DNA of 64,000 bases, taken from assembly GCA_030248295.1 (NCBI GenBank), contig JASANH010000882.1:372001-436000 (forward strand), read 5' to 3'. Each line of letters starts with the position of its first letter. Positions within the stretch are counted from its first letter, which is position 1. Below are positions 11,998 to 46,912 of this stretch, in pieces. The notes beneath the pieces are model-generated. The model had not been told where the DNA came from. It saw only the letters and a list, made by a program, of their open reading frames with translations, and did not search any database. Source of the DNA: Mesodorylaimus sp. YZB2_4 (Eukaryota; Nematoda; Enoplea; Dorylaimida; Dorylaimidae). The translations under genes and the position numbers were made by a program.

Positions 11998-12003
11998 TCA
12001 TGG

Positions 12004-12250
12004 CAATTCTGCAAGTGTTTTTAATTCATCGTGCAATCGTAGAAGCAGTTTCTGCAGTTGACCAGAAGGCAGTATGTCGCCGATGCCGTCATGAAATCGT
12101 TTCGTTACTTTCACAACTTGTTGAAAGCAAGGCGATGGCGAAGGCCCCACATTCCATTTCCTCAGACAGATTTCAAATTGATTTTCGTCTAAATTAAGCA
12201 ATTGACTAAATATTTCATCAACGTGATTTTCGTTGCCCTAAAAAAATAAA
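12004..12250 (-). pseudogene. Inverted truncated copy of VPS54 last exon
   Basis: Reading the minus strand, a T-rich acceptor ending TTTTTTTAG is followed by ENHVDEIFSQ, PSPSPCFQQVVKV and RFHDGIGDILPSGQLQKL. These match the start of VPS54 exon 16 (9452 onward) closely in DNA, with scattered substitutions. The frame stays open through the copy, then leaves the VPS54 sequence after LKTL and stops at about 12000. Roughly 230 bp are shared and the remaining last-exon sequence is absent. The intronic acceptor is included, so this is a DNA-level duplication and inversion, not a processed copy. No other VPS54 exon is visible beside it. Confidence 0.85.
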
Positions 12251-13093
12251 TCATAAACTCAAATTTCCACCCCCCCCCCTCCCCCGACTTCTGCGGCCTT
12301 AGTATGTCTCAAAGTCGCTCCAGCTTTACAGCAACCCACTCTTGGTGATTTAGCAATTTCTTTTTTTTCAAATCAATGCACTGCATGCCTAAAACTCGGC
12401 AGTATTGTGTATCAGGATGTAAGGAGATCTCGAAATTGTAAAACATCGAGTAAATACTGGCCCTGGCCAGACTGAAACACTCACTTATCTTCTTGAGGAC
12501 CTAGTGCGGCCAAAATCCGGATGCTATGCTATGCTATTTCACTTCTTCTCCAAACACATGATTGTGCACTCAACGGATAAGCGGCAACATGGAGCGAGAT
12601 CATAGATCATTGGATCATCATTTGGCAAAGCCGGCAATCTGGATTCTTAGGTGTTCTGATTGCAAATATTTTTGAAGAAGAAGTGCACTCTGGAATCGAT
12701 GTCGAACAATCGAAAATAGAGTATGATTTACACTTCAGCACCTCCGTTTTATCGGGTAGCCAAAATTTTGGACCGCTATCTCAAGAATCTAAGTCATAAA
12801 TGACAATATCGACAGAAATGACAGGAATAACACTAAACGTGTTCAAAAGCGAGATGTCAGAGCGCGTGATCGTTTTACACTAATCGTAAGGCGTTTCTTT
12901 TTTCATTTATGTCCTTTTTATTGTGCGAGATAACTTGATAATGCTGAAAACACATCAACTTTTTATTTCGTCATTTAGAGATAATTTTATTCGTATCGAA
13001 AATAACCTCGCCCCACCCCCCAAGAACAAAGATATTTAAATGCGACAACGAAAACAATTTCGAAGCGCCCTTGATCAATGCTGCATATCCAAA
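12251..13093. other. Intergenic, C run, no gene
   Basis: Between the VPS54 fragment and the 3' end of the P450 gene. Contains a C-rich run at about 12271-12287 and AT-rich sequence. No open frame or repeat with clear borders was seen. Confidence 0.4.
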
Positions 13094-15589
13094 TCAATTC
13101 TCTTCATTCTCTCTGCTTTCAGCTACAGCACAAAATTTAGCAGGCGACAAAGCAATATCACTTATCTCATAACTTCCCCCACAATTGCTCGTATAGTTTG
13201 GGGCGCACTGAATTCGTAGTTTTTGCATGAACGTAACAAAAGTAAGAAACATAATGTTCTTAGCATGCGCTTCTCCAGGACACAAGCGATTTCCAGCTCC
13301 GAAGAAGAAAAGATTGGCAGGACGACTGAGTCGCCCATGCTCATCTAGAAAATTTTCTGGATTGAAGCTGTTGGGGTCTTTGAATACATTGCTATCGCGG
13401 TGGGCGATCCAAGCTCCCATAAGTACGTCTGTGCCAGCTGGAATTGTGTAACCTCCTAAAATTCAAGAAGCCTTTTTGATGGGTGAGTGAACGAAGCTTT
13501 GTAAGAGTTTCTGACATCGATCATTCACTGCAAGCGAGGTTAGAAACTTACGAAAGTTGACATCAGTAGCGGAACAACGGGGAAGTGAGAGCGCTGTGCT
13601 GTGGCATCGCAACGTTTCCATGATACAAGCTTCGACATAAGGCAGACGGCGCTGGTCGTCAATGACAACTGGTTCGTCGTTAAGGACCTAACAAATTTTC
13701 GTTTTTGCAAATCTTGGTTGAGTAAAGCCGTCATTTACTTCTTTAATTTGCTGGTAGCATTTCTCTTGGATTTCAGGATGAATTGACATTTTCAAAAGTA
13801 GCCAACTAATTGTAGCACTTGTTGTGATGATGCCGCCTAAAACATTGATTTCATCTGGAATAAGCTTTCCTTGGAAATGCCGCGCAATGCGACTTCCTTA
13901 CCGAAAAAAAAATCCAATAACAAGTAAACGATATCAATATCTTGAAAGTTGTTTGCGCCTTTCGCGCTACACGGTTTTAGCCGGTCAATTAGGCGTTGAA
14001 CCGCGCACGTTATAGTGTTCTCTGGACAGACAGATTCCTTGAATCAGCCCACTTACTGCACTATCAAATAAATACCATATTTTCTCAAAATTTGCCCGTC
14101 TAGCCTGTCCTTGGTCTGATCTTACATGTTAGTCAGATGAAATTTCTCTCCGTGGAGGAGTACTCTCACTAATCAGTTGCACTAGCTTAGCAAATGCACT
14201 CTAAACTCACCAGATCGCCCTTTCGCTTCTTGATACCAACGGGCAATGTCCCGCCTGTAGCGATGGAAACTTCTTCTGGCTTTGAGCAGTAATGCGAAAG
14301 ATTTGAAAGTTGGCGAGGAAAGTAAACTAATGAAGGACAAAGGGCGAAGAGCCACGCTTATTATTTCTTCGATTTCGATGTGATCACGACAAAGCCGCTG
14401 GAACTCCGGATCGCGAGGGTTAAATCTGTGCGAAAGTGCGGCAAGACCGCGTTATATTCGATTCAACCTTGCATACCCCACGGATCCGTCAAGCTCATCG
14501 ATAGACGGACTAGAAAAACGTTAATCCTTATTTATACCTTTTCCCAAACATCAGAAGAAAGGTCGTGTAGTAAGTGAACTTTGTCGCTAAACCTCGAACA
14601 TCGATTTCAATGCGCGTTTGGTCATTCATAACATCCGCCACCACCTTGCTAATGCCCTGGACTGATTCTTTTTCTGCTTCTTGGTCTAGCAGCAGCGACC
14701 TTAACATATTCAGTGCAGGACATTTCGATGCTCTTAAAGAAACGGTGCATATTGATGGGCAGGGCTCACTTTGCAGATTGTAAAAGTGAATTCCGCAGCG
14801 TTTGCCATCTTTTCGAATAATTTGAATTGGGTAAATATCGGCAGTATTCATCTCCCATGAAAAGGGCTGCTGCAATAGATGCTAATATTTGGTACAGCTT
14901 CTACTTTGACAAAGTGCACTGATGAACCTGCAGCTCACACTACTTCATCGCTGCTCGATGCGCTTCAAGTCAATTTTTCTAGCTAAAAGTGTCGTGTAGC
15001 ATCGAACTATGAGTATATATGTACTGTATGTACTCTGTACTTACCTTTTCGATTAGTACCGATTAGTAAACGCTTGCAGCAACCCTTTGATCAAATTAGT
15101 CTCAGCAAATGGTGGATCCAGCAGCACAGCGCTGAACACAAAGTCATACTTGCTGCCTCGCCCCCTCATTCCTTTTAATGCCATCATTCAGCGATGCGAA
15201 GTAGGAGTTCTACCTGGTCTCACTTACATAGAGCATTATGGGATGGCCGATCATGAATGCTTTGCTCAACAAAAGCTTCGCGGATCGAGTCCAGTGAGCA
15301 GCAAACGACCATTGGCTTCGAAAAAATCCAGATCGTTATCACGTCGCCATACTTAGCTTTCAAGTCAGCAAAAATTTTATATTTTGGACGTCTGTCGCAA
15401 AGGAATACTAGCAAAAAAACCAAATGCCATCTCAAACAAAAACTGAAGCAGCTGGACCTTACAATGTGCGTTTCCAACGAATGGGAATGACAGCGGACCA
15501 GGCGGCAACAATGCAAAATCTCTTCTTTTTCGAATTGCATGCCAGATACATAAAAATGACACAATTATAACAGCCAAGGCGACATACAT
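13094..15589 (-). CDS. Cytochrome P450, CYP2-like, 9 exons
   Basis: Membrane-anchored haem monooxygenase of the endoplasmic reticulum. Exons: 15589-15463, 15407-15228, 14869-14770, 14732-14538, 14425-14211, 14021-13902, 13854-13739, 13687-13552 and 13455-13094. They total 1551 nt, an open 516-codon frame of normal family length. The N-terminal helix (residues 1-20) is followed by the PPGP hinge and FVGNAH. The C-helix WxxxR is WQTLR (near residue 120), the I-helix GGIITTS (near 317), the K-helix ExxR is ETLR (near 375), the meander NPENFL (near 437), and the haem loop FFGAGNRLCPGE carries the ligand Cys near residue 456. The I-helix lacks the usual acidic residue before Thr. The short third intron (about 37 nt) is the weakest junction. 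The fold is certain; the subfamily and substrate are unknown. Confidence 0.9.
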
Positions 15590-16193
15590 GTGGGCCTTTA
15601 TGGACAGAAATTTCGGAGTACTTATAAAATTTATAGTGCAGTATATCTTGACCCAAGAAAGTTAAGAAATTGCGAACAAATGAAATGTGTATGAGAATGC
15701 ACACGCATTTATCAACCGCATGTCATCAACCTGTGATCGCGCGGTGCACATGTGTACCAGTGTCAGTAACCTCTGTTGAAGGAAAAATCATGGAAAGTTT
15801 ATATTATCTGCGATACTCACGAAGGTGTCTTTGTTTAGGTAACATAGACTGACAAAAAAATGTTTTCGATATTGCTGGAGCGAGAAACTGTTTTTGCTCA
15901 GTTAGCATGCGGAAGTTTGCGGAGGTACGTACCCCAGCACTAACTGTTACTGAATAACAACTAACCAGTTTCTCTAGTATATACGGAGTCATGCGACGAA
16001 TGTGTTGTTCCTGCTTGTCGTGTTCTTCTTGTTTTGGTTAGGTGAATAGGTAGTAGAGTAGTACTAGACGCTACGTTTAGTGTGATGCGCGAAAAAAAAA
16101 CTTCATAACATTCAACAGCCGTCTAACTGAAGCGAGCAATGCACAACTGGCCTCTAACAATAAGTATACCTTTCGAATTGTTTATCGGTAGCT
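15590..16193. other. P450 upstream region
   Basis: About 600 bp upstream of the P450 start, which should include its promoter. No TATA box or repeat could be assigned with confidence and no open frame looks coding. Confidence 0.4.
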
Positions 16194-16815
16194 CCAAATA
16201 TGCCCAAGCCATCTAGCTTTCAACGTGACCACCCATCCTCTATACTTTAGCTTTACATTTGATATCCAAATATGCAAAAAACTGCAGCCTACAGCGAGTT
16301 TTCCAAAAAAATCCATTTTTTTAAATCTTGCAGAACGGATCATAAAGTCGGACATTTATTTTCGGATAGAGCAAAAAAAATGGCGTCGATTGGTTTTTTT
16401 CTCGGCTGAAATTCGACTTCTTCGTGTGAAAATAGAGGGGAAGTTATAAATTTCTCCCGCGACTTCCAGAGTAAGCAGCCCAAACCGCACTCTTGTCATA
16501 AGCAGCGCGCGGGGCGGGAAACTCAAAAGGAGCGTACTTCAGGCACTTTTAGGCCGTTAATTTCTTTCCCTCTATTTTCTCAATTAGAAGTCGAATTTCA
16601 ACCGGAAAAACCTGTCGGTGCCATTTTTAAAGCTCTGTCCGCAAATAAATGTCTGGTTCCCATGATCTGTCTTGCAAGATTTTCAAAAATGGATTTTTCT
16701 GAAAATTCCCTGTACTTGGCAGCAGGTTTTTGCATATTTGGATATCAAATGTAAAGCTTAAGTATAGACGATGAGTGGCCACGTTGAAAGCTAGATGAAT
16801 TGGGCATATTTTTGG
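16194..16815. repeat. Fold-back element, 250-bp inverted arms
   Basis: The left arm (16194-16450) and right arm (16561-16815) are inverted copies, with matching strings such as ATCTAGCTTTCAACGTG and TTTACATTTGATATCCAAAT and an estimated 80-85 percent identity by eye. A 110-bp spacer separates them. Neither arm encodes protein. The terminal string is CCAAATATGCCCAA on the left and CCAAAAATATGCCCA on the right. No clear target-site duplication was found. Likely a non-autonomous fold-back or MITE-type transposon. Confidence 0.75.
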
Positions 16816-17320
16816 CTGGTCAAACCCCGTCTCCCAGTTGGCATAAAGGAACAAGAGGTCTGAAAGTCGTCAACTTGGAGAGCACTTCAACTTGGCGCCT
16901 GGTATCTCAAGATAGGCGAAAGATAACAACCTTTCGCGACAGGCATTCGATTCCTCACTCATTTGCAAATACGCTGATGTGTTGTTGATAATCCCGTGAA
17001 AATCCAGTTTGCACAAAAAAGCACTGTTGCGTCACTATCACCACTCATGGTTGCATCGAATTCACACTAAAAAATGGTAAAGGGGTGGTCGAAAATTGAA
17101 GCTTGGTAGCCTTCAGAACGACCCTTACAGAAAGCCTGTCTTTAAGGGTCAGTGCCATGATGGTTCCCGGAACACGATGGGCAACGTTCTCTACACCCAT
17201 TACCGCACTGTGTTTAAAAACAGATTTCTGTTAGATAAGTCGTCAAATACTCTATTCTACTGTACAAAAGCCGCTCAAGGCGTACAGTACATAAAGATAC
17301 AAGGTATGCAAGAGAAGCAA

Positions 17321-20300
17321 TCATGGAGACAACTTTTTCCGTTTTCTGTACTTCTTGTAATTCAATCTGGCCAAAGCGTTGGATTCAGTCGTATGTTGCT
17401 TGAACATTTGACGGAATTTCATGCTAACGCATCTCGTTGACGCGAATCGACGTCCAATTACATTCAATCGATTGTGCATACGTTCGAGTCCCTGTTCGGA
17501 AATCAATCCTACAGTTTGATATCGTTTAGCAAATTCAGGTACATGGCAACGCAAAATATGCATTTTTGGTGTGACAGTAAGATTGTGAATTTTGCAAAAA
17601 TTTTCGTAAGCTTCTGACCATTCGTAAATTGACCAAATCAAGTAATTAATTTCAATTTCTGATAAAAAACGCGCTGCTCCCATCAATTTCGTGACGGCAC
17701 CAAGTTTGGTTAACAAATCCAAATATGTTTCACGTTCTTGTTCATGTTCTTCCGAGGTCCCATTCAAGGAAGCTGCGAGTTTTCGTGGACCTTCATCTTG
17801 CAACATTTTTTGTATATGATTTCCAACAAATATTCCTCCATGGAACGCTCGTCGATCCACTCCGAGCTCTCGTAAGGCGTTTTTGAAAGCTGTGGTTGTT
17901 GGGCCGCATTTGATTGCAACTGCTTCCTTCTTATCGTCCAGTTGCATCAGCGAAGAGCCCGCGGAATTGTCGCATGAAATAGAGCCAGATTCAAAAAGTG
18001 GAGAATCTTCTAAATTGTCACTCGACGTAGTGCCACATTCCTGGTGCGGGTCACCTGCAGCTTTTGGCTTTATGCACTTGGGACATTGCCCATCCTGAAT
18101 CCCGCTTGATTCCCCCTTGTGCCCGATCAGACAGCAGCTGGTATGCAACCAAATTTTGCACATTTTGCATTTAACCCATTGCACAGGTTTCGCGTATGAA
18201 CCACTCTGGACTAAGCAGACGACAGCACCACATTTCCCGCTTCCAGATTGATATTTTTGGTCACTGTCGTCAAAGTCCATATTGTATCCCATTTCGAAGT
18301 CCCTTTTCATGCAGGCCGATTCGATAAGATTAACCAAATGTGTACCAATTCCGAGCATTAGATGGAGAGTTGGCGGGATGACGTTGGACAGAGGAATGGG
18401 TATCAGAGGGGCTGATCTAACCCCACTGGCTTTCATTTCTTCTTCACTCATGGAATTTTGCTTTGAATAATCACGCAAAAATGCTTGATCCGATAGGAAA
18501 TAGCCTTGTTTCAAAATGTCCTGGGATATGAAGCACCACGGACATGGGCATCGCGCCGAAGAACCAGCCAGACCAAGGATTCGCGAAAGGAATAGAATAT
18601 CGCCAAAAAGAAACACTTCGATTGGCCAATGTTCAGTTGTTATGGAAGAATCGGTGTCCTGATTTGATGAATTACCCTCCATCGATTCGATCGGTCGATC
18701 CTGCTTTAAATAAACTGGTAAAACTGTTGATTTCAATTCTTCCCATTCGTCACGATACAAAGCCAAGACTTCGTTCAAATTATGATAACAGTCATCACCT
18801 TGGTATAATGCTAATATGTGAATGTTACTGAAATTACTTGGCTTTTCAACGTTGCCAAAAGTAAGAACGATTTTTGTACTATCTCCACCTTTATCGCCAC
18901 CAATACCAAGCCATATTTTCTTACCATAACGAGTATCCAATTTGAGAGTGTTATTTTTTTGAGTACGTTCAAACATTTCTTTCACGTAGGAGACTAAAGA
19001 AGGGGCGCGAATACATAGTCGTCGAACGAACGTTTCATTCCTATCTTTTATTTCGCGAAGAGCTAACATATCTTCTCGCATTTGTGTTTAAACTGCTCTA
19101 CTCTCCACTTCTTTTCGCATTTCTTTTTCTGGAGCGAATAATCCGATGCCCATTGCTCGTAATCGTCGGTCGAGTAAACGTTTCTGACTCCACGACATTT
19201 TAACCCAATGCATTAAATCTACCGATTGCGCCCGAGTCAATTTGGTAGGCACGAGTTCACGATATTCATCATCCTCGAATAACATTTTGGCCACGGGTTT
19301 ATTTTGTCTCAAATAATGACCAAGTAAATAGCTTTTTGTATCAGGTTTATCTGTACCACTCAAAATGCCCAGAAAGCTATCCAAAAGTTTTAATTGCTGT
19401 AATGAATTTCGATTGCTTGTTTTACGGAATGGTATTTTAGTAACAGGGACGTAATGATAATGTTTACGGGACGAAGAATCCATCATTCGAATTTGCATCA
19501 AATATTTGTTATTTGGACTCTGGCGGGAAAAACAGTTTCTATTCTTCAAAATCGATTCCAATTCTTGAACTCTATTCGTCAAGGAGATAGTTTCAGGGGG
19601 TAAATTTAATTTTCCTCTCAAATTCCGAATGCGAATGTGAAGATCCGCATTCGACTCTCTCAAAGAGTGAGTTTTCTGTTTCAAAGATTTCATTCCCGCA
19701 ATTAATTTCATATTTAAGCTTTTCAAATTAACTTTTTCTTCTGCCCATTTAGTGGAAAAAGTAGAATCTGAATGCGATTTTGGAGACTTGCCCCACTGAC
19801 TGGTCTGATCTTCGAAAGTAGCTTCTAGAGCAGGCTTAAGAATTGGGGCAGTATCTAATAAAGGCGGGATCATCGATGACTCGAATTGTTTGGGGATGCT
19901 TTTTAAGATTAGTGCGTCGAAGTGACCTTTAGCTGGCTCGGTGCATATCAACACGATCGGCAATTCTGGACATCCCGATACTTGCCATTTGGGCTCGATA
20001 AAAAATAATGGGGAAAATTGCAGAATAGTATATCCGCCAAGTTGTTTTGTGCGAGGCCAAAACACAAATACTCGTCGTTGAAAAAGCGTGGCAGCAGCTA
20101 CGATTTCATTTTCTCCTCCCCATTCGTGATAACTGTCTAAATGTGTCCGTTTGACGTACTCTTTAGGACTGCAACCCAAAAACTCACGTAATCGATCTTC
20201 TTTGCATTCTGAGTAAAATTTTGCAATATCTAAGCGAATAGCTTGGGCAGACGAGCAGGACGGAGTGAATTGGTAAAGCGAGGCGAACAAGCAATTAGAA

Positions 20301-20650
20301 TCAGGATAAATAATACGTTGGTTAAAACTGTTTAAAGAATAAAAAAATATTTTCGAGACGGTCTTACATACTTGAATGCTCGACAGGTATGCATTGCTTG
20401 GCTGATCTTCTTGTTCGCTCGGTTCCATCCGCTCCATGTTTTCTTCTCTCGCTGCATTATCTTGTGCTCCTTCAATCTGATCGTGAGAAGAATCTGGATC
20501 AGCATTCCCGATTGGAACGGGAGCAGCGCTAGAATTCGGTGGATCACTCTTTTTTACTTTGCGATAACCATTAACACGTCCCGCAGGTTGTGATTTCCTT
20601 CTCTTTTCCCATAATTTTCGTAGGTGGAGAAACTGCTTAGATTTTATTTC
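17321..20650 (-). CDS. OTU-coiled coil-PHD-recombinase-like open frame, one internal TAA
   Basis: One frame of 1110 triplets, open except for TAA at 19088-19090; the ATG at 19081 follows six bases later in the same frame. First Met at 20437, though coding-like basic/acidic sequence extends upstream to 20650, so a 5' exon may be missing. Parts in order: OTU-type cysteine protease with DSNCLF (catalytic Cys) and GHFDAL (catalytic His); a coiled coil rich in Leu/Lys; then, after the stop, GIGGDKGGDSTK, FLFGDILFLSR with CPCPWC, a PHD-like finger (CKMC, LHTSC, CPKC) inserted behind HLMLGIGTHLVNLIE, and TPKMHILRCHVPEF followed by GLISEQGLERMHNRLN. The second half resembles multi-copy uncharacterised animal proteins that I believe are transposon-related; its spaced D, D and E could be a DDE-type centre (inference). 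No terminal repeats were found. It may be a transposon, a domesticated gene or a pseudogene. Confidence 0.7.
20328..20371 (-). other. Intron-like 44-nt segment inside OTU frame
   Basis: On the minus strand this segment begins GTATGTAAG, has a T-rich tract and ends AAACAG, matching the short introns of neighbouring genes. Reading through keeps the frame, but removing it shifts the upstream frame relative to the OTU domain. Either it is not spliced, the first exon is read in another frame, or the gene carries a frameshift here. Confidence 0.4.
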
Positions 20651-21780
20651 CTACCTTCGCAAAGAATTTGCCGCGTCAAACTGATTCCAGTACGAAGTAC
20701 AGTATATCTGAAATCAAAAAATTGTTTCCAGTCAACGAAATGTTTAAAGACGTACTTATATTTAGATGCACATACGGGTAAATAGGAAAATAGCTGCCGC
20801 ATGTGAAGACGCAATGGAACTACAGCAGATACATAAACGCTATGTACTAGGTACTATACGTAAATTATGTTTGCATCAGACATCGCGAAATATACTGTGA
20901 GTCGATTGACATTAGCTCCTCTAATCGGTAGCCTAATTTTTTAATGCACTCATATATCTATCTATGTACATCATAATGAACCAGTAATAATGCGGTGGCA
21001 CCTCGACAAAATGCTTTTCTTCACTCAACCGTCTCGGCGACCCGTCCCAGGCAGGCAGGCATACTGTAGCCGCATCCCCCCCCGCACAACTGCGCAGGCA
21101 AGCCTTTGTTCAGGTGACTCTCGCGAAATCCGACCAACGAAGCAAAAGTTTTAGGATGATGAGAACAACAATTTTAAGCGAAGTGTTGAGCGAGCGAGAT
21201 GTTGAGCAGAGTGATTGATGGTCGTTTTTAAGGGTAAAGAATCAGTTTTCCTGACGTTGCGTATTTTTTGTCACGTCTTCGATCCCCGATGCGCCAGTTT
21301 CGAATGAGTCCTTATACGCCCTACTAGCACCCTTTTTGGAATTCGTGAAAGATCACCAGATTGCTATTGATCAGAATACATAGCGAATTACCAGAGTGAA
21401 GAAGCGGCAGGAAAATATAGAACGAAACTTATGTGCCACCGTCGTCTGTACATGGAATTTCCCTACAAGTGCCTATGACCTGATAACAAGCCCACGATCA
21501 TTCGAATTTTTTGAATATAATTATGCAAATGCACAATGTAGGGTGTGCAGATACTATGGGATTCTTTCAAGTTTTTAACTTCACCAGCCACTCCCTAGCT
21601 GAGCACGACCCCCAAGTCCATGTGAAAAAACACTCAGCAGCAACACTGGCACCGTCAGCCGCAAATTCAGCTTGTAGATAAACTTAAATCCTGGGTAGTT
21701 TAGCTCCTGTCAGCCAGCTCGCTCTAAGGTGGCTTGGGTGACTTAGCTGGGCCCGTCAGTGTGTGAACTTGCCTTTAAGC
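20651..21780. other. Intergenic, no gene seen
   Basis: AT-rich sequence upstream of the OTU frame. It carries a GGCAGGCAGGC stretch at 21050-21060 and a C run at about 21077-21085. No convincing coding frame or bounded repeat was recognised. Confidence 0.35.
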
Positions 21781-22974
21781 GGCGTCCACATTTCACCTCG
21801 GCTGCCGAGCTAACCGAGCCAGCCGAGCTGTCAGCTGAGCTGACGTGCGTTCACATTGCATACCTCGGTTGGCTCAGCTCTCGACTGGCTTGGCTTGCGG
21901 CTTGCGGTCATCTCAGCTCGGCTGGGTCGTTCACATTCTTTTCGGCTGCTTTTCGGCGGGCTCGGCTGAGGAGCTCGGTGCTCGGCGCAGAAAGCTTCCC
22001 CAGAAGCAAGACTACCGCAGAGAATTATCATCGTCAAAATCAGACGAATAAAACTAAAATATGTCTGGTATTGGTCTGCTGAACGAAGAGCAGTACATGA
22101 CCAATGCACAACCTGTTGCATCATCTTATCTTTCGCATCACGGACATCCCAACCACGCATACGTGCACTGACGAACAAACACTTTTTACTCAGGAGACAC
22201 GTGGAGTATCAGGTCGATAGTTCTGTCTCTAATGATCAGAATGAGAAGGAACAGTGACGGAACAGCACCAGTAACAGTTTTGCTGGGGTCAGTTCCACTA
22301 CTGCCGTTTTGGTAATACCCTCATCGATGCATATGCTGGCTGGGCAACTTAGTTGTTCGTGCGTGCAGTAAGTTATTTGCTCGTTTCTAGATAAATTCAA
22401 TTAGCGTGCCTTCTGTAAATCTTGAAACACACTATTTCCAGCGTAATTTCCTCGAGACCATTTCTCTAATCCTGTTGGATTAGATTGGATGAAAATGTTA
22501 AATTTGACGCCTCAGTCCCACACTTTCCCCTAGCACACACATGATGGCGACTCGCATCGGACTCCACCCGTTTTTTTCCAATTTACTGGTTCAATCCCTG
22601 AAGTTCTCGTGATTCCTAGTCGCTAGAACCGATAAACCGTTTCATAAGTTCACAATAATTCAATAATTTCATCATAATCCATATTTTTATCGATATTGGC
22701 TACTTTCCTGTTGATAACTCCAGAACGATTGTCCCAAGCTCGGCTGGCTCGGCCGGCAAAGTTGCAACTTCCAAAATTTCGGAAGCCAGCCAGCCAAGCT
22801 GAGCCAACCGCATGCCACAAACCGAGCTAGCCGCAAACTGAGCTGACCGCAGGCTGAGCTTGCTGAGCTGATAGTCGCAGTGTGAACGACACCTCAGCTG
22901 ACAAGCTCGGCTGGCTCGGCTCGCGGCTGGCTCAGCTCGGCTGGCTTGGCAGCCGAGGTGCAATCTGGACGGCC
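21781..22974. mobile_element. 1.2-kb element with word-rich inverted ends
   Basis: The two ends are inverted copies: the left begins GGCGTCCACATTTCACCTCG and the right, read inward on the minus strand, begins GGCCGTCCAGATTGCACC. Both ends (about 21781-21985 and 22735-22974) are packed with variants of AGCTCGGCTGG, AGCCAGCCGAGC and CGTTCACA. The middle has no open frame of note. Such subterminal word arrays are typical transposase-binding regions of non-autonomous DNA transposons. The superfamily is not assigned because no target-site duplication is obvious. Confidence 0.7.
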
Positions 22975-24230
22975 CTACCAACATGCAACCTGCGCTACTG
23001 CACAAGATACATGATCTTTCCGAAAATATTGAAAAATACATGCTGAGTTAATGCAAGCGGTGCACATATTCGTGCATTTTGGATATCCACAGGATTTTCA
23101 AATTCGTATCTCGAATGCGTATCTCTGCTCCCCAAAAGATAAGATATGATACTGTTAATGTCTTAAGTTATGAATATTTATTTTACACAGATACACAGAT
23201 CCAGATATGGATATCCTGTCTTGCTCAGAGCCAGGCAGGGCCACGAAAAGTAAAAGCGTATTTTGAAGGCGACCACAATCAACGAGATAAAAAATTTCCC
23301 ACATTTTGTGTCCCTTTTATATTTCTTACAGCCCCTGCATGTGCGCAGTATTGATTGACACGTCCTGACTTACGAGACCTTCTTTGTGCTATGCGTCAAA
23401 TGTCCAAATGTGAAATTCATGATTAGTTTCTGTCATTGAAAGCAACATTTTAATTCACACGTCTGATAAGAATTGTCTTTTAATGAGAGACATTAGGTCT
23501 TTTCACCCACCTAGGCCTAAATTATGCCTCATATGTCTTTTCAGTCAATCAGAACTCTGGTCAAGCCTTCCCCGTTTAATCGGTGCTCCTCTACAATCCC
23601 ATTTCTATGTACTACATATGCTTGAATGTGAATAGCCGAGTTGAGGAAGCCTGTGAAGAAGGTATACCCAAGCAAAATTATTTTTGTTACTGCAAAGGGC
23701 AGCAAGAAAGAATAAAAACAGCGGAACAATTGCAAAGAGACATTTCAGCTAGGGCTCTGCAATTAGAGATCTGGCACAATGGTAAGGAAAGTTCATAGAA
23801 AACTGCCCTAGGGACTCCATTGGAGAAGCCTTGACTCCACCCATCATCTCGCTTGGTGATTGCTGTCGACGCATTACATTTTAAAGACATTTCTCGACAT
23901 TTGTTTAAAATAAAGTCTTTAGGCAACAATATTTGCCCACTCCACGCTCGTTTTCTGACAGAAACAGTTCGTTTTAAACAACGATTTCATCAACAGGTAG
24001 GTACAGTATGCGTTTTTAAACGAGAAAATGCCCATAACTGCGATGGAATGCTTCCACTTATTGTTACAGTAGGTGACTCGAAAATGGCGGGCTGCACTCG
24101 CTTGTAACAAACAGGAAGCGAACGTACGAACGTATAAATTCAGAGATATACCCATGTAACTTTGATCCTACATTCTTTCAGCATAGCTACGATTACACAC
24201 GGTAGTATCTGTCCGAGGTAAAATACCAAT
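22975..24230. other. Intergenic, one unrecognised open frame
   Basis: Upstream of the receptor gene. A 71-codon plus-strand frame at 23583-23798 has a charged, helix-like end (residues TAEQLQRDIS) but no known domain and no clear exon partners. The promoter of the downstream receptor should lie in the right part. Confidence 0.35.
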
Positions 24231-25340
24231 TTGCCATCGTCAACTCTCAAAATGAACGGAACGAATCAGACCACGACCATTTACCCAACCTTCGATGAGC
24301 GAGTCATCATCAGCTCGTATTATTTTACAATCAGCCTCGGTTGCGCGCTTCTGCACTCATTTGTGGCCACCTGCATTTTGAAAACGCAGATGATCACTAG
24401 CGGATCGTCGAAGCACCTGTCCCCGTTCTACACGCTGACCATGGTGCTGTACGTGAACGACTCGTACAAGGCCCTGCTGTACATGTTCTACGCCTGCCCG
24501 TGCATGATACTCGGCTACCAAGTGTACGGCACGACGGCTGGCTATTATATCGGCGCCACGCAGACCATCAATCACAACAGCATCGTGGCCGCCACGGCCT
24601 TCATCTCGCTCAATCGGGCTCTGAGCATCAGTTCCAAGAAGGCCTGCGCACGGGCCATGTTCGCCCGTCGAATGTGCGTGGTGTATGCAATCTGTGGCTG
24701 GATCACTGGCGTCCTGGTCGTCGTCATGAACGTCCTCATTCTCGAGTGCCACCCAGTTTTCGATGAAAATAAGTTCTCATTCTTGACCTTGTGCAAGGAC
24801 CCTTCGGCCGTGGCCTACATGCCCAGCTCGGTGTACGCCTACGTGGGCATATTCGGACTGGCCATATGCTACGCGTACGCTCTGATTGTCATCAGGAGGT
24901 CGAAAATGTCAGTTAGTGATCAGAGCGTGGAAGCAAGAATTCGCAAGAGGCAACTGAAGCTGTTTCAGCAAGCCATGTTCATATGGCTAGGATTGGTGGC
25001 GAATGCGATCAGTGAGTTTGCAGGAAACGTTTTTTCCTTAAAAAAGGCGCAAAGTCTGGTGTGATTGTTTCACACTATATTGAAGAGTCACTCCTTCCTT
25101 TCTTCCTGAAGTCAACCTTTCAACCTCAACCATCAACCTGTTTCAGGCTTTCGAATCATGGCAGTATTCAAACCGAGTCGTTGGGTGACCCCGATCGTGT
25201 ATGGAGTGTTGATCATTGGTCAAAGCTACGTGACTCCAATCTGCGCCATCATTTACGACAATCAGGTCAGAAATCAAGCCAAGAAACAGCTGCGAATGAA
25301 AGCCCAGATGATTTCTATTGTAGCAATGAATGTGCAGTAG
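24231..25340 (+). CDS. Seven-transmembrane receptor, nematode serpentine type
   Basis: Plasma-membrane G-protein-coupled receptor, probably chemosensory (inference from class). Two exons, 24231-25011 and 25147-25340, give 975 nt and 324 codons. The junction falls in ISFRIM after helix 6. ATGs at 24231 and 24252 are both possible; the second leaves a short N-terminus with NGTNQT, a glycosylation sequon. Seven hydrophobic segments can be counted: about residues 25-50, 62-82, 95-125 (ending LNRAL where DRY is expected), 143-166, 195-218, 244-264 and 278-298. Helix 7 carries TPICAIIY in place of NPxxY, followed by a basic cytoplasmic tail. The first exon is markedly more G+C-rich than the surroundings. 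The family level within serpentine receptors is not resolved. Confidence 0.8.
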
Positions 25341-30796: not shown

Positions 30797-33362
30797 GTGC
30801 ATGGAATCGAACTACGCAGGCATCCTCTGCGAACATTTGAAGATACGGAAGCTTCTGGGACAAAGAGTGACAGCCTAGCACGATATTGGGATGTTGCATG
30901 GCCTTTTAATGGAAACCTATGCTCAAATTAATGGTATGACTACTTTACTCGAAAACACTGTTTTGATTTGCACAGTGACCTTTTGTTTGAAAAGTTGCCA
31001 CATATTCGCACTGTAGCTCGTCTTTTTCTGTAGCTCAACGCCGTCCGAGCAAAACTATAGTTGCTAGAGAAAATCAGTCCACTACTGTACCTAGTCTGTG
31101 CATAACACTGCAGCCGGCTTTTTCATAATTTTGAAGGTTAAAATTATTAGGCGCGCTGTTAAAACGTGTCAACTTTGAAAGCATAACACGATTTGAATGC
31201 AGCTTTGAAAATGTTGCAATACGCCCACAGTACAGCGAGGTTTAGCTTGAAATAAGTCAGGAAATTCAAAATTCTGTTAATTTTGGAAAAAAAATCTAAA
31301 ACATTGTGATAGGTGTTTAGACCAAAAGCATAGAGAAGCTCTTTTTCTCGAAGAGAACACAAACCCTCCTCGCCCTTTTGCGTGATTCATATACCTTTTA
31401 AGAATCGATATTTAGTAATTGGAGTCCTAGTGCAACCTTTATTCAGGCTGCCACCTGCGCTATCACATTAGTTACCTCATCCGTTATCAGCATTCAGCCT
31501 TCGCTTTCTTTCTTGGAGCCCTGAAGCACCTGCTTCTTCGTCCATTAGCCAAGCACCAACTGCTGTGATATTATCGGCGAGGTGGGTGCGTGCTTAGGTT
31601 TGGCCGAGACAGCTGCTTTATTTGGTCCTGGCACCCACAAACACATTACCCTTGACTAAATGTCACGCCAAGGCCCACTTCGCAATCATCCCATTTCTTG
31701 CCTGTTAGGCCTGTTCAGCTGGAAATGTATCGCGCCATCAATAGCGAAAAAAGCAGTAAAAATTAGTTTTTTATGCTCGATGGATACAAGGCTGAGAGCT
31801 TTTCCTCTTAAAACCATGTCCCTCGGATTGATTGACTTGTCTGGCCGAATTTATTCGAGCCTTCCGCCAGAAGCACTTTTTTCTGTCCTTATTTCCCTGA
31901 GTAGGTTTAGTGAGATTTTTGAGTTCTTTTCCAGAGCATTGCTTTTTGTGCATTGGGGTTCGTCAGCTTCGCACAACATTTTCCTTAATTAGGACTCAGG
32001 CGGATTGCTGTGAGTCCGAAATGGAAACGCTTCGTGACAAGTGGAGGAAATAGTTACTTAGGCTGTACTAATGACGCCTGTATGCCTGGGCAGGAAGCGA
32101 GTCCAGATATGATTCCGGTTTTGTTGTGTGGACTTCGCATTTTCGGAAATCTTTGATGCCTATGTTATGTTTAGAGCAGCCCCCCCCCCCCCCCCACCGA
32201 CTCACAATCACGAAACTTGGAGAATAGTGACATCTCATCTTTAGAAAACCTTTGAGGACACCCAAAGCAACATGGCCGCATCTTTAGCATGGATATTTTG
32301 TCACCACCACTGGCTTCTTTTTTTTTGGAGTGTGACTTGAGGAGCTACCGAGGGAGACGGTTCTTCTTACTTCTTCCAAAAAATGTGGTGGGAATCAGCA
32401 TATTTTGAGATCAGACCAAAATGTTTTCAAAAGTGTGACAGTGAGTTTGAATTATTTTTCCCATTTGCCAAAAATTTGCGAACTTCTCATCAAACGCGCA
32501 TTCTGACGTCAATCCAAATCATCTTTGGGGAGTAACGCGTGGTGTACATCCTCAGGGCGACTCGTAGTTTGTTTGAATTGAATTCGAGTTTAGTCAACTG
32601 ACTAACAAAATCGAATTGGAAGCTTCGTATTGACATCAGCGCAAGTCGAAGAAACGAAGTCAGTCGAGTAGAAGAAGGAAGCAACTTTCGCGTTAAATGT
32701 CTGAAAAAAGAGAGAACCGTCGAATGAAGAAGCTGTTTTTTCCAGACTTTTATTACAGCCAAAACGTAAAATTGGCTTAAAAACAGAATTTTTATCGCTT
32801 ACCTCCAGTGGCACGTCAAGCCGGACGATTTTTGGCCATTTGTGGCAAGATTAGCCATAGTCTCAGAGTCTTTGTAAAAAAAAATTTTAGATCCTTCAGC
32901 AATCGATGGCCACTTGTCCTGTGGGATCCTGCAAAAAGAGATGAAATTTCGCTCTATTACATTTGCATATCCAAAAGCGCTTGGGCTGCTCGGAAAGCTC
33001 CTGGGAATTTTCGAAATCAGCGCAAAAGATGAGGCTGAGCCAGTTTTTGCACAAATGGACCCGAAATTAGAATCTTTTACATGCTTTTCTGGATGACCTT
33101 TTTTGTCGTACCTATACGTATGGTATACTATGGTACATATTTCCATGTGCTATATTGGTGTTTCTTGTATTTTGTATCAATTTTAGATTAACTTGGGGAT
33201 TTTAAGATTTTAGTTATTGTTCTATGGACAAAATTATCTCGCTGCCCTGCCGCGACTAGTGAAACATGATCAAATGGAAAGGCACTGAAAGATTTGTAGC
33301 TAAAAACAATCTTCCCCCTTTTAGGCTCGTATTGCTCAGTCTACTTTTGCATTCTTGAAGTC
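30797..33362. other. Intergenic, C run, no recognised gene
   Basis: Begins just after an ACCGACCGC-repeated tail at the end of the aminopeptidase remnant. Contains a C run at about 32180-32197. The longest open frames (110-115 codons near 31660 and 33146) show no domain, biased composition and no splice context. The right end should contain the promoter of the next receptor gene. Confidence 0.35.
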
Positions 33363-34454
33363 ATGATCCACATATCAAATTACTCAAATTTTTCGCCTAC
33401 GATTAATTCGAGCTATTTTGCACCACCACCAACATTCGACAGAACCCCAGTTTTGGTAACTGGAACTTTCGAGCTTATATTTTCCCTGGTCGGTATGCCA
33501 GCTAATTTATTAGTTCTGTATCTTTGGACCATGATAGGTCGAGAGAGTGATCAGAGCGGTCACTGTGATTATGCCATTCACAATAATAACCATTGGTTTA
33601 TTCTTGGAATAACTGTAGCGGATTTGATATTTACAACAGTGCATTCTCCGATGGTAGCAGCTTGGTTCATCGGGAATTATGAGTACAAAGGTATCACATG
33701 TTTATTCTTAGTGGCTATAACCCACGCTTCTACAACCGCCTCAAGTATAAATGTACTTTTATTAAATTTGGATAAATTTTTATATTTGCATAAACCATTG
33801 CGTTACTACGATATCATTACTAAAAAGCATGCCATATCAGCCTTGATATTTGGCTGGACGGTGGCAATATGCTGGGCATTATTCTTTACTTTTGGTCCTT
33901 TGACTAGATTTGGAAGACAGTGCAGCCACATTGAAGTTATTAGGCCACTAGAATACGTGTGCTTTGCATTGTTCTTCTTTATCTTACCAATAACGGTCTC
34001 GTTCTGGATTAGCATCTACATAGCCACCATTACCATCAAAGCATCCAAGGATCAATATGCTGCTTCAAACAGAGAAACAAGACCAACGTCATCTAACCTG
34101 GCTAGTCGACTGAAAACGATGGCGTTCATTTTCACAACTACAGCATGGAGCACTGTCACGTGCTTGCCGTACAGGCTTGCGTACACATTACATCGCGCTA
34201 ATTATGTGGATTACACCCGCTATTTGTGGCTCTATTACACATTCTATGTAATGATGGCTATGACGGCTGCTGGAAATCCATTCATTTCTATATTCACGCA
34301 GCCGCATTACCGAAGGCGACTTGTCAAATCTATAAGAAGCTTGAGCAAAAGGCATAACGAGAGCGAGTCACACCTTGCGTCTTATGCGGGAATGACGCCT
34401 TCATTACCAGCTCAAACCCATGGTGATAAAAGTATGCTGACCTACGCAGCATGA
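33363..34454 (+). CDS. Rhodopsin-like GPCR, intronless, 363 aa
   Basis: Class A G-protein-coupled receptor at the plasma membrane. Single open frame from ATG 33363 to the stop at 34454. The N-terminus carries several N-x-S/T sequons. Helix 1 ends GMPANLLVLYL (conserved Asn), helix 2 has ADL, and the extracellular Cys is at the start of helix 3. The helix 3 end is NLDKFLYLHKPLRY, where DRY is expected. Helix 4 has the conserved Trp, helix 5 the Pro, helix 6 reads TCLPYR, and helix 7 ends GNPFIS in place of NPxxY. A basic tail follows. The shape suits an amine, peptide or orphan receptor of invertebrates; the ligand cannot be told. Absence of introns contrasts with the neighbouring genes and could reflect retrocopy origin. 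Confidence 0.85.
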   Translation: MIHISNYSNFSPTINSSYFAPPPTFDRTPVLVTGTFELIFSLVGMPANLLVLYLWTMIGRESDQSGHCDYAIHNNNHWFILGITVADLIFTTVHSPMVAAWFIGNYEYKGITCLFLVAITHASTTASSINVLLLNLDKFLYLHKPLRYYDIITKKHAISALIFGWTVAICWALFFTFGPLTRFGRQCSHIEVIRPLEYVCFALFFFILPITVSFWISIYIATITIKASKDQYAASNRETRPTSSNLASRLKTMAFIFTTTAWSTVTCLPYRLAYTLHRANYVDYTRYLWLYYTFYVMMAMTAAGNPFISIFTQPHYRRRLVKSIRSLSKRHNESESHLASYAGMTPSLPAQTHGDKSMLTYAA

Positions 34455-37713: not shown

Positions 37714-38309
37714 AAGGTTAGAGTGCATTCTACCGCCCAGCAACTTCTTAGCTGCTAAACTCATGGTCACTAACGATAAGAAGCGTATAAAACTCTAAAC
37801 ATGGTCTAATGAGTGACTGTTTTCGACTCCGATGTTTTTATAAATTTAACCTGTTTGTTACCTACATATTAGAAAATACTCTGGGTGACCTGGTTTCGAC
37901 CTCGGGCTGCACCAGAGGTAGAGTATAGTTTGTTAATCTCTTGTTTGTCAGACCCTGATGTTCGCTCTGTAGTCACGGTTCCGAGAGTCTACTTCCGTGT
38001 TGAAGGGACTGATATGGTGCCTCTCGTGTTGCCGTGCACGCACGTATCTGGAATCTGTTACGTTCTCTCCATCTCCGCCGCTTCCCAGGAGAAAAAGAGG
38101 CAAGGTCTGATCGTCAACGTCAGTGCGGCATCGGTGGGCAGGGAGGTGTTACTAATGTATTCGAGCATATGTCGGCGAGTCGGCTCCCTGGCTCGTTTAG
38201 TAGAACAAACTCGACCGCCGGCTGTCGGCTATCGGTTCTTTCCACACGCACATACAGCATACAGCTAGCGCTTCTATTATCTGCGCTGAAAAGGAGTATT
38301 TCTGGAATA

Positions 38310-39994
38310 ATGTACGACGAATATTCGAGAAATCAACCTTCTTTAAGTGCGAGTTCGGCTCATTTTTCAGCTGATGGTCAGACGGCGAGTCCTAGGCAAT
38401 CGATTGTAGCTTCGATATGCTCATATAAAGAGAAGCCCAACCACGCGAAAATTCGAGAAGCTGCCCGCGTGAACTTTATAGAAGGTGTGTCCATTGCTGG
38501 TCTTTTAGAAACTTACTTTTCCCCTAATCTTGTACAGCGAGTAATGTGGATGGCAGTGCTTTTGATTGCACTGGGCTCGATTCTTTATCATGCATCCCTA
38601 CTCGTAGCTGCTTATCTAAATCAGAACCCTCAATATGATTTCATCCAAACCGACGACATAGTCATTCCATTCCCAAAGGTGAGTGTGTGCGCACCATCAG
38701 GAATCAATAAATCCTGGCCTGTCAATCATATTCGCTTCCCAAAGAAAGAGCAGGAAATATTCGATAAGCTGAGCGATCCCGAGAAGGCCCAGTTTGTCAG
38801 CACTATTTCCGCATTGATGGGCAACAGTTTCGAATACATTGTGGACAAGGGAATCACCCCCACAGACCCCTTGTATTATGCATATCACCACGTACTCGTC
38901 GAAACCTGGAAACACACGATGCCTGGAGGATGGAATGCTCCTGCTGCAGTGCCCTCTTGCCGAAAGACTGTGTCCAGCTGCCGCTTCGGAGACGTCGAAT
39001 TTGACTGTTGTCGCGCTGCAATCACGCAAGTAATTGATGACGGACCGTGCTTCGATTTGGGAGTGGACATATTTGATCTAAGTCGGAATTATTCTCGCCC
39101 AGTCAACTCGCCTATCTCTTTCACCTTTGATCTTATCATGGATTGGAACTACATACTGCCAAGTGCCAGTATCAATGGTTTTTCAGCCCACATAGCCGAT
39201 CCACTTGTTCTGATGGGCCAACCTATATCTGTGCCGGGCGCCATGCACGCCACTATCGATATCTCGCACCCTACTCTTCGAATGGACAGGTCGCACTGCA
39301 CAGAGAGAACGATGCCTGCTACTGCTGCTGGCCCATATGATTCTCGAGGTCTTTACTGCGCAGCTGTTCGATGCGCCTTCGAAATTATAAGGCTCTACCT
39401 GGGATGCACTTTTGCCTGGGGCACCTATGTTCCAAACTCAACTGACGAATGCACGGGTGCCCAAACTTTGCCGCTTAAAATGTTCATTGCGTATGGCTTC
39501 CGAGGACAAGATGATCAAGAGAGCTTATTTGTAAGTAATATAAGTATGCCTTACACCTGCCTATTTTAATATCTCTGTCAGTTTAGCGCGAGAAAATGTT
39601 TGAAATTATACACGATACAGTCAAATGCCCTCCATTGAGCAAAAGATGGGTATTCACTCCGAGACCAAGCTACTCCCACTTGTTGCGAGAAAATTATTCT
39701 GTTCCAGATGGTAGTGGCGAGTCGAGCAATGTAACGCGCAGCCGCGTAACAATCTACAGCTGGTCGCCGTATTATTTAGCTCGTATCGAGATGAAACCAG
39801 ACCCATTTTATTCTACCTTCCTCTTAATCAATGACTGTTTGGCATTGTATCTGGGACTTTCCATGATTACTTTCGCAGAGATAATCTTTTACAGCGTAAA
39901 ATTATGTTACGTGTATAGAACAACTAGGAAAAATATTGTGCCAATGGGCCAAAGTCCAGTCTCAAATTCTGCGTCTTGGCCACATTTGCTGTAA
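38310..39994 (+). CDS. DEG/ENaC sodium channel subunit, 542 aa
   Basis: Trimeric amiloride-sensitive-type cation channel of the plasma membrane (mechanosensation, acid or peptide gating in the family). Exons 38310-39530 and 39587-39994 join in phase, 542 codons. The start is the ATG before YDEYSRNQ; the frame stays open upstream to 38034 but that part lacks family features. The N-terminal block FIEGVSIAGLLE precedes helix 1 (about residues 78-100), then VIPFPKVSVCAPSG. The ectodomain has paired cysteines (CRKTVSSCRFGDVEFDCC). Helix 2 (about 486-515) contains LYLGLSMITFAEI, with Gly-Leu-Ser at the selectivity filter. The usual run of cysteines before helix 2 is reduced to KCPP, so the thumb domain looks degenerate. 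No close similarity in sequence to the second channel at 51518 beyond family motifs. Confidence 0.85.
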
Positions 39995-40407: not shown

Positions 40408-43290
40408 CTAAAATGTCAAGGAAAAAACAAATGCTTTAAAAGTCTCCAAATCTGAAAAAACAGTATCCTCTGGTAACGAATTCCATAACATAAAAGTGGA
40501 CAGCTCAAATGATTGGATAAAAGAGTTCGTTCGAAATTTTGGAATCACCAAGTGATGAGTGGCAGTTAAACGGGAACTGCTTCGAAGACCAGAAAAGGAT
40601 CGATGAACGAAATTGATGGTCGAATAATCATGTTGCCCATGATACAACTTGTAAAATTGAGTCAATATCAAGTGCTTGCGTCTGTCAGACAAGCGAGGCC
40701 ATCCACACTTCGAAGACACGTCGAGGGGATTGATAGACCAATCGTTTAGATAGATCCTGGCTGCTAGAAGCTGAGACCTTTCGAGGTTCTCCACGTCCTT
40801 TTTGAGAATTGGATCGTATGCACATGAGCCATAATCGAGAATAGAACGAATACACGACTTGTGAACAGCGCCAATGACTTCTTTGTTGATGTGCCGACCA
40901 AGTTTTCGACGTAAAGCACCCAACATCATTCGGGTTTTCTGGGAAATTTCCTGAACATGCTCTGAGAATTTCATGTCAGACGAAAAAGTTATTCCCAAGT
41001 ATTTTACTTTGTCTGTAAAAATAATTGGCTGGCCATGAATTATCACAGCTGGGTACTGATCAATATGTCGATAATTATAACGAAACAGAATAGCTTTGGA
41101 CTTCTCGGCGCTCAGCTCTAATCCAATTGCTTGTAACCACTCGTGGATAAAATCAACAATAGTTTGACAGATACGGGATGCATCATTTCTAACCTTCATC
41201 GGAATCAGAATGACCAAGTCATCAACATATGCTAATAATTTTTCGAACAGAAATAATTTTGGGAATTCATCCAGTAGCAGATCGATGTAGCTGACGAATA
41301 GCGATGGACCGAGAATTGAGCCTTGCGGAACCCCAGACAGAACATGAGCAAAGTCTGATCGGGCAGAATTTACTTTCACGAACTGGCGGCGATCCGACAG
41401 ATAAGAGTGCAGAAGTCGTAAAAGCTTTTGCGGCACTTCATGGAAATATTCCAAGTTACGGAGAATCGGAGAATGAGGAACTCGATCAAACGCCTTCTTA
41501 ACGTCCAGAAATATTCCAACCACATTGCCGAATTTCATGCTATTCAGATTTTCGTGAATAAACTGTGACACGGAAATCAAAGCAGAGTTTGTACCACGAC
41601 GTTTAACACAGCCAACTGATTCAAACTGATTCGGCGATAAACGTAGTTGGGGACGAATCAGATCTTCAATATGCCGCTCAAATAACTTCGACAAAATCGG
41701 AAGCAACGAAATCGGCAGATATGAGTTGATTGAGTTTCTATCTCCGGCCTTTGGTATCGGAACAATTTTTGCGCATTTCCAGAGCATTGGAAATCGCCCA
41801 CAATCGATACAGCGATTGAATAGAAGAGACAATGGGACTGAAATCGAAATAGCGATTTTCTTTAGAATGGAAACAGTCAGACCATCGTCACCCGTAGCAC
41901 AGTTGTTTCTCAGGCGACTGATTTGTTTCTCAATGAATCGAGGCGAGATGCTGTGGTCACGAAAATCGTCCTCGTCGGCAGGTGGAGGGTTATAGTCGCC
42001 AAAATTGTTGGGATTAAAGTTTTTGCGAACTGGTTGTTGAACTCACGAGCTTTCTCCCCAGACGTGACAATGTGCTCATCAAAGTCATTGATCAGAGTTG
42101 GAATAGACTGGTTGTTTGGTTCAAGTCGCTTAAAATTTGACCAGAATTCCCCAGCAGTTTTACAGTTTGAGAAGGAACGAGTAATGGATTCCGACTTTGG
42201 TGATCGAATTTGCTTGCGGCATTGCTTTATAAGACCAATGGTGGCGATCGGTAATCAAACCAGAAGCTTTCCAATTTTTGTATGCCTCGTTCTTAGCTCT
42301 GATCAAGGCTAAAATGTCACTAGTAATCCATAGTTTCCGCTTTTCCACTCGGATAGTTTTCTGCGGAACATTGTCACAGAGAATTTCACTTCTGGCCGAG
42401 GTCAGTGCTGAACAACCATTGTCGACCGAGGAAGCATTTAAAACCAGTTGACCATAGATTTCGTTCAAGTAGCTTTCGGTTCACAAACCCCAGTCAGCTC
42501 GGTTAATTTGCCAAATCGTTCGCTTATCAAGCGGGCGCTTTTTCGCAAAACCCAAAACGGACAGCGAGATCAAGTTGTGATCGGATGAAGAAATCGGCGG
42601 TAGAATTGACGTGGAGATGTGTCGATCTTGATCACTAATAATCGCCAAGTCGAGCAGCGACTTGCCCAGTCGAGTCGATTCGTTTACAGTTTGGGTTCCA
42701 CCAATGGATGCCAAGAAGTCGCAGAATCTTGTTTTCGCAGGCAAATTACTCAACAAATCGATGTTGAGATCACCCAAAATTACAAGTCGATGGAGCTGTC
42801 GATGAAACGCTCGAAATATATAGTCCTCCAGTTTCTGAACAGCCAACAAACTTGTTTTCGGAATATAGACGATAAGGCAAATAACTGACGAATCACCAGT
42901 GCCGACATAAACGGCCAGTACTTCGAAGCTTGTTTGATCAATTCCAAAATCAGCAGGTCCCTTGACACGATAGGATGAAATGGAAGAATTGTAGAACAAG
43001 GCAATTCTTCCGTCAGGTTCTTGCGGTCTTGTCGGAAAATAGAATATCCTGGACAGAAATTTCGCTATTAGAAACGGAATTGTCGATTTTTGTCTCGACG
43101 ACACCAAAAACGTCATAATTTCCAGATAACGATTCACGTTCCAGGTCTTCACGTTTGCCCGAAATACTGTTTACATTTGAAAAGCCAATTTTCCAACATT
43201 GCTTGGAAGAGGGGACGAAAATTCGAAGAGGGATGGGACGCACCGCCGCACACGGAGCCCCCATTGTCCCACCCCAAATCTGGTGTTTCA
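40408..43290 (-). mobile_element. Dead non-LTR retrotransposon, endonuclease plus RT
   Basis: Reads on the minus strand. An APE-type endonuclease starts at NVNSI (about 43190) with VVETKI, then after a frame change GDLNIDLLSN and SSDHNLISL (to about 42481). A linker in another frame follows (42468-42160), then the reverse transcriptase 41832-40408. The RT blocks are visible: PIPKAGDRNS, GIFLDVKKAFDRVPHS, SGVPQGSILGPSLF, LLAYVDDLVIL (the catalytic pair) and KYLGITF. The thumb/C-terminal region runs to the stop. The arrangement fits the Jockey/CR1 group. At least two frameshifts break the ORF and the 5' part is missing. The long intact RT frame (474 codons) suggests moderate age. Confidence 0.88.
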
Positions 43291-46909: not shown

Positions 46910-46912
46910 TCA

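Follow-up and report, generated by a model that had tools for sequence, protein, structure and literature searches.

What kind of protein is, or was, encoded at positions 17321-20650 on the minus strand of a 64,000-nucleotide stretch (hereafter the window; contig JASANH010000882.1, positions 372,001 to 436,000, assembly GCA_030248295.1) of the dorylaimid nematode Mesodorylaimus sp. YZB2_4, where an OTU-like cysteine protease domain, a PHD-like zinc finger and a D...D...E recombinase region occur together? A first-pass annotation had placed these parts, together with a coiled coil, in one frame and had proposed that they represent a new system, either a poorly described DNA element or a gene domesticated from one. 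All the motifs it named (DSNCLF, GHFDAL, GGDKGGDSTK, FLFGDILFLSR and the finger) are indeed found in the sequence of this interval, and the four parts, the coiled-coil-like stretch being judged by eye, do share a single minus-strand frame; this frame is, however, split by a TAA stop codon which the annotation had not recorded. We consider it likely that the locus holds one decayed copy of a DNA-transposon transposase gene of the DUF1280 (Chapaev-like) kind, from the RNase H-like branch to which RAG1 also belongs.

The identity of the recombinase part is given by a match to the Pfam family DUF1280 (PF06918; coordinates of all features in Table 1). The read-through frame, with the stop written as X, matched this profile at E 1.9e-24 (86.9 bits, cut-off 25) and the part after the stop alone at E 2.5e-23 (83.3 bits, cut-off 25), so that both bit scores exceed the curated cut-off more than threefold. 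DUF1280 has been assigned to the Chapaev transposases, members of the RNase H-like superfamily that were placed with RAG1 in a common clade (Majorek et al., 2014, PMC3985635; this paper, like the others cited here, is represented by excerpts). Because the recombinase part thus belongs to a family that already exists and has been assigned in print to a known group of transposases, the locus does not represent a new system as had been proposed. Chapaev and Chapaev3 have been counted in a wider Transib superfamily beside RAG1 (PMC4411706), and Chapaev has also been grouped with CACTA and Mirage as CMC (CACTA-Mirage-Chapaev) (PMC4079192); we make no choice between these schemes. Chapaev elements are present in nematodes (Chapaev-2 of C. 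elegans, PMC7917558) and DUF1280 domains have been counted in cnidarian genomes (PMC7642931).

The candidate catalytic residues and zinc ligands of the frame follow each other in the order D, D, CxxC, HxxxxH, E, which is that of RAG1. Four spacings equal those of mouse RAG1 (residues D600, D708, C727/C730, H937/H942 and E962; PMC4914335), namely 19 residues from the second Asp to the first Cys, 3 from Cys to Cys, 5 from His to His and 20 from the second His to the Glu, while the two Asp residues stand 98 residues apart in the frame vs 108 in RAG1, and the insertion between the Cys and His pairs measures 325 residues vs 207. This insertion, 118 residues longer than its counterpart, is the one in which the PHD-like finger sits, and the surplus is about the size of the finger plus the Ser/Asp-rich linker which follows it to approximately residue 920. 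As the putative catalytic Glu, the second E of SEQGLE is the most likely choice, and Asp 572 also meets the loose distance allowed for the first Asp.

The PHD-like finger found its top PDB match in the PHD finger 1we9 (E 0.00058), and its ligand pattern together with weak profile matches suggests a genuine PHD domain. Every interval between its ligands falls within the range reported for the RAG2-like (RAG2L) PHD fingers of protostomes and invertebrate deuterostomes, Cx4-7Cx14-16Cx2-4Cx4Hx2Cx11-18Cx2C (PMC7204232); this agreement may be coincidental.

At the other end of the frame, the putative catalytic Cys 120 (20293-20291) of the OTU-like domain lies in DSNCLF and His 243 (19924-19922) in GHFDAL, 123 residues apart, and WGGENEIVAAA stands between the two boxes. 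This succession of Cys box, WGG..E motif and His box is the order usual for OTU domains. The top PDB sequence match of the region was 6dwx (E 0.0054; 0.024 and 0.052 with longer queries), whose chain the file labels RNA-dependent RNA polymerase and which we take to be the OTU region of a nairovirus L protein. Motif and weak profile matches thus point to a predicted N-terminal OTU domain, a putative deubiquitinase of the ubiquitin-removing kind. When the letters of the protein were shuffled 20,000 times, the Cys/His pattern of OTU arose once, the PHD pattern with the RAG2L ranges never and the D-CxxC-HxxxxH-E pattern at RAG1 spacings six times; all three patterns were drawn up with the sequence already in view, with the RAG1 and PHD spacings taken from papers, and the fit to the RAG1 pattern involved choices, namely which of the three Cys of CPCPWC and of the two Glu of SEQGLE to use and whether to take Asp 572 as the first Asp.

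OTU domains are known from other transposons, being found in Ginger1 transposases, of which one family also has a PHD finger (PMC2836005), and discussed in Helitron proteins (PMC9741609). These precedents would favor an OTU-bearing element of one of these other classes. Yet the DUF1280 match is strong, the OTU domain is C-terminal in Ginger1 (PMC2836005) and N-terminal here, and the Pfam scan of the read-through frame, which gave four matches up to E 1, contained no Rep, helicase or integrase family. We therefore regard assignment to Helitron or Ginger1 as extremely unlikely, and return to a Chapaev-like transposase gene, whose reading frame deserves closer description.

The frame comprises 1,109 codons and is open except for the single internal TAA, whereas shuffling the mononucleotides of the interval 300 times gave a mean of 71 and a minimum of 48 stops; the plus-strand frame of the same interval holds 56. 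From the N- to the C-terminus it encodes a basic N-terminus, an acidic linker, the OTU-like domain, a Lys/Leu-rich stretch, the DUF1280 segment and a long C-terminal half in which the PHD-like finger is embedded. The long low-complexity, coiled-coil-like stretch which parts the OTU domain from DUF1280 would be compatible with the chance adjacency, in frame, of two unrelated remnants, one of an OTU gene and the other Chapaev-like. Against this, a single frame crosses both with one stop, OTU recurs in other transposons (as in the papers cited above), and codon preference backs the same frame ahead of the OTU domain, though the score was trained on the frame from 20302 downstream, a stretch that itself takes in the OTU domain. 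Such a chance juxtaposition thus appears very unlikely to us. The codon-preference score was above 0 for the frame in windows from about 20600 to 20360 and fell to -2.2 at 20420-20300, where it was still the top of the three frames; upstream of about 20600 it gave no support, and no upstream exon was recognized by eye or by this score.

The TAA most likely lies inside the conserved DUF1280 segment and not within an intron, because one profile match, of 173 residues on 174 profile positions, spans it. Donor-like sites were seen at 20775, 20654, 20371, 20367, 18924 and 17512 and acceptor-like sites at 19520 and 18994; none of these indicates an intron across the TAA, under an acceptor filter strict enough to miss even the acceptor of the 44-nucleotide intron-like stretch (GTATGTAAG ... 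TTTAAACAG) immediately ahead of the OTU Cys motif. Excision of that stretch would shift the frame, 44 not being a multiple of three. The earliest in-frame Met is residue 72 (20437), and none precedes the basic N-terminus. As now read, this copy cannot give rise to the full enzyme. It is most likely a dead transposon relic and not a working gene, and since the TAA falls in DUF1280, no Met stands ahead of the basic N-terminus and the intron-like stretch is not a multiple of three, a young relic is the simplest reading of its state.

The other possibility raised in the first-pass annotation was a host gene domesticated from such a transposase, in which case the TAA would have to be avoided by splicing, by read-through or be due to a sequencing error. 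Domestication would agree with the good preservation of the rest of the 1,109-codon frame, with a likely host gene (of the Srx receptor type) located 3.6 kb away at 24222, and with the failure to find termini (see below). It is disfavored because the stop codon lies inside a single DUF1280 match in which protein and profile lengths are nearly equal; that no intron was seen over the TAA is weak evidence in the same direction, given the strict acceptor filter. Moreover, none of the presumed DDE residues has been lost, and such full retention is commoner in a recent transposase than in many domesticated genes. Taken together, we find domestication unlikely and continue to favor the relic of a Chapaev-like element.

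A number of results nonetheless weigh against a Chapaev-like transposase with OTU and PHD domains. The profile searches suggested in the first-pass annotation placed DUF1280 above its cut-off and both accessory domains below theirs: Pfam OTU matched residues 116-197 with E 0.0012 and 19.8 bits (gathering cut-off 23.3; E 0.0036 in the whole frame) and Pfam PHD with E 0.042 and 14.3 bits (cut-off 24). Chapaev transposases carry a Chapa zinc finger and some subgroups a RING (PMC4411706); neither is visible here, and there is no C-x2-4-C in residues 1-560. A lost or unseen 5' exon is a possible reason for the absence of Chapa, and because this finger was not seen we file the frame as Chapaev-like (DUF1280) and not as a canonical Chapaev. 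Nor was a RING-like Cys cluster, as in RAG1, seen in the frame. A PDB search up to E 10 matched 12 sequences, none of them a RAG1 or Transib chain, so that the proposed kinship with RAG1 would be based on the DUF1280 assignment and the order of motifs, not on direct similarity. The AlphaFold model of the second half alone, computed without an alignment, and that of the OTU stretch alone reached mean predicted local distance difference test (pLDDT) values of 35.0 and 32.9, respectively, too low for either fold to be usable. Finally, a second copy of the frame was not present within the window, relatives were not detected in the collections searched (viral and prokaryotic contigs for the second half, viral contigs for the first half), and terminal inverted repeats of the type CAC...GTG with a short duplication did not rise above the null expectation.

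These repeats, with a target duplication of 3-4 bp, are hallmarks of Chapaev (PMC4079192). Scanning left (12000-17330) and right (20640-24400) of the frame for CAC/GTG ends yielded 67 pairs with a 3-5 bp repeat, none of them with a TWA duplication, the best having 12 of 20 tip matches; when the scan was placed at random in the window 40 times, with some placements possibly overlapping the tested one, the top pair reached 10-15 matches, and at least 12 in 31 placements. A general scan for terminal repeats (left 13500-17330, right 20640-24300) returned 234 pairs. The best of these, at 17025/22264 (18 of 24 matches, with a GCAC repeat), was rejected, as it does not start with CAC and its right end lies within another inverted repeat (21778-22976). 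The latter consists of diverged inverted repeats of 63 bp, 75% complementary and 1,073 nucleotides apart, with GCTCGGCTGGCTCGG-like units, and appears to be a repeat element of its own, upstream of the frame. Just downstream of the frame, at 16196-16811, there is a further inverted repeat, whose arms measure about 250 bp and are 82.5% alike (BLAST), resembling a foldback element or a miniature inverted-repeat transposable element (MITE).

In the search for relatives, degenerate GGDKGG patterns were found at 58 loci (57 on viral contigs, one on a genome contig), with scattered chance-level matches only when the frame was compared to them by tblastn; the lowest E-value, 0.02, came from one 8-kb locus searched alone and lay outside the pattern match. 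The match in one of these loci is a short string, GGDKGGASTK, that to our reading resembles a P-loop ATPase. A tblastn search of phages (up to E 1) and searches of PHROGs (up to 0.01) and NCBIfam (up to 1) were without a match.

Table 1. Features of the minus-strand frame at 17321-20650, in order from its 5' end (window coordinates).
Feature	Position	Strand	Remarks
First half of frame (520 aa)	19088..20650	-	ends at in-frame TAA
Intron-like stretch, 44 nt	20328..20371	-	just before OTU Cys motif; donor-like site at 20371
OTU-like cysteine protease domain, ~residues 95-245	19916..20368	-	Pfam OTU, PDB 6dwx, Cys/His boxes
Lys/Leu-rich stretch, residues ~300-385	19496..19753	-	coiled-coil-like by eye; weak PDB matches to sc-apCC3 chains, E 0.22 and 0.32
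DUF1280 segment, residues 469-641, profile 46-219 of 220	18728..19246	-	Pfam PF06918; contains D1
In-frame TAA, residue 521	19088..19090	-	inside DUF1280 segment
Second half of frame (588 aa)	17321..19087	-	catalytic core and PHD-containing insertion; 17321-17323 is the stop
D1, residue 586 in GGDKGGDSTK	18893..18895	-	candidate first metal ligand; inside DUF1280 match; picked by eye
D2, residue 684 in FLFGDILFLSR	18599..18601	-	98 residues past D1
CxxC, Cys 703 and 706	18533..18544	-	ZnC2-like; Cys 703 19 residues past D2
PHD-like finger, residues 807-859, Cx4Cx15Cx2Cx4Hx2Cx16Cx2C	18074..18232	-	C4HC3 ligand pattern; PDB PHD matches
HILRCH, His 1031 and 1036	17543..17560	-	ZnH2-like
Glu 1056 in SEQGLERMH	17483..17485	-	candidate catalytic E, 20 residues past His 1036

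The surroundings of the frame were surveyed by a Pfam scan of ten other open reading frames (ORFs) of the window, of which eight were matched and two were not. The matches comprise Srx and rhodopsin/Srsx-type receptors, two ASC sodium channels, an M1 peptidase, two reverse transcriptases and a collagen repeat (below cut-off). Receptors of the Sr families are typical of nematodes, and here include an Srx receptor-like gene at 24222-25064 (+; Pfam Srx E 5e-14) and a gene of the rhodopsin/Srsx type at 33300-34454 (+; E 1.5e-17 and 1.9e-07). Two genes or gene parts for ASC (amiloride-sensitive sodium channel) proteins lie at 38013-39569 and 53262-54407 (+; E 2e-13 and 3.9e-22). A reverse transcriptase ORF with an endonuclease-like ORF upstream of it (40408-42042 and 42481-43170, -; RVT_1 E 3.7e-30) is, by eye, probably a long interspersed nuclear element (LINE), and a second ORF resembling this LINE-like one at 40408-43170 occurs at 46838-47629 (+). 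The reverse transcriptase at 55531-57877 (+; RVT_1 E 4.1e-36), with neighboring ORFs on the same strand, probably belongs to a long terminal repeat (LTR) retrotransposon that is Gypsy-like by eye. An ORF at 15377-15661 (-) resembles by eye the start of a cytochrome P450 (LLPPGPLSFPFVGNAH) and had no Pfam match at E 0.001.

If an intact ancestor of this copy worked as its motifs suggest, the two Asp and the Glu would bind metal ions in an RNase H fold, with CxxC and HxxxxH closing one zinc site at the base of the long insertion. The enzyme would bind the ends of its own element, excise it and paste it elsewhere, the DDE core performing the metal-dependent cutting. From within the insertion, the PHD finger might read a histone tail and thereby steer or license cutting or insertion, while the OTU domain might remove ubiquitin either from the transposase itself, stabilizing it, or from host factors at the break. 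It has been proposed that Ulp1 and OTU domains may act in transposition, e.g., through the DNA repair system (PMC2836005), and that helitron-encoded VTD deubiquitinases might protect proteins required for transposition, the activity of transposon OTU domains not having been tested according to the excerpts of that paper (PMC9741609).

With respect to novelty, Chapaev together with OTU was not found in the literature searched, with Repbase, the home of Chapaev families, lying outside the search, and no Chapaev with a PHD finger is described in the excerpts of PMC4411706 and PMC7917558. A Chapaev-like transposase with OTU and PHD domains may thus be a new domain variant of a known transposase, although Repbase may already list one. 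More tentatively, and with doubt prevailing, the locus could document a RAG1-related lineage that unites in one chain a catalytic core with a histone reader of the RAG2-like PHD type, the PHD lying within the zinc insertion, and with an OTU domain in the terminal position that a RING occupies in RAG1 and some Chapaevs. Should intact relatives share this architecture, then the RAG1-related branch would have acquired a chromatin reader and an enzyme of the ubiquitin system repeatedly and in different ways (either RING or OTU, and with the PHD in trans or in cis), histone reading as a recurring need of this type of recombinase would become testable, and one more DDE superfamily would join the transposons already noted to carry OTU, Helitron (PMC9741609) and Ginger1 (PMC2836005).

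Compared to known systems, the frame shares with DUF1280/Chapaev transposases the strong profile match over the segment of the first Asp, and DDE-type residues with a zinc-ligand pattern between the second Asp and the Glu; unlike the Chapaevs described with Chapa and in part RING (PMC4411706, in excerpt), it has an N-terminal OTU domain and a PHD finger in the insertion. With Ginger1 and the OTU-bearing Helitrons it has in common an OTU domain in a transposon protein, and with one Ginger1 family also the PHD finger, whereas the core enzymes differ, being a Gypsy-like integrase in Ginger1 and a Rep-helicase in Helitron. In RAG2 a kelch propeller is followed by the PHD finger; by contrast, no kelch family was among the Pfam matches of the frame up to E 1, and PHD finger and transposase core share one chain, unlike in the V(D)J recombinase of vertebrates, which splits core and PHD reader over two chains. 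Likewise, RAG1 and some Chapaevs carry a ubiquitin-adding RING at the end where the frame has its putatively ubiquitin-removing OTU domain. This transposase remnant would be a distant cousin of the enzyme that cuts vertebrate antibody genes, with two unusual additions, OTU and PHD.

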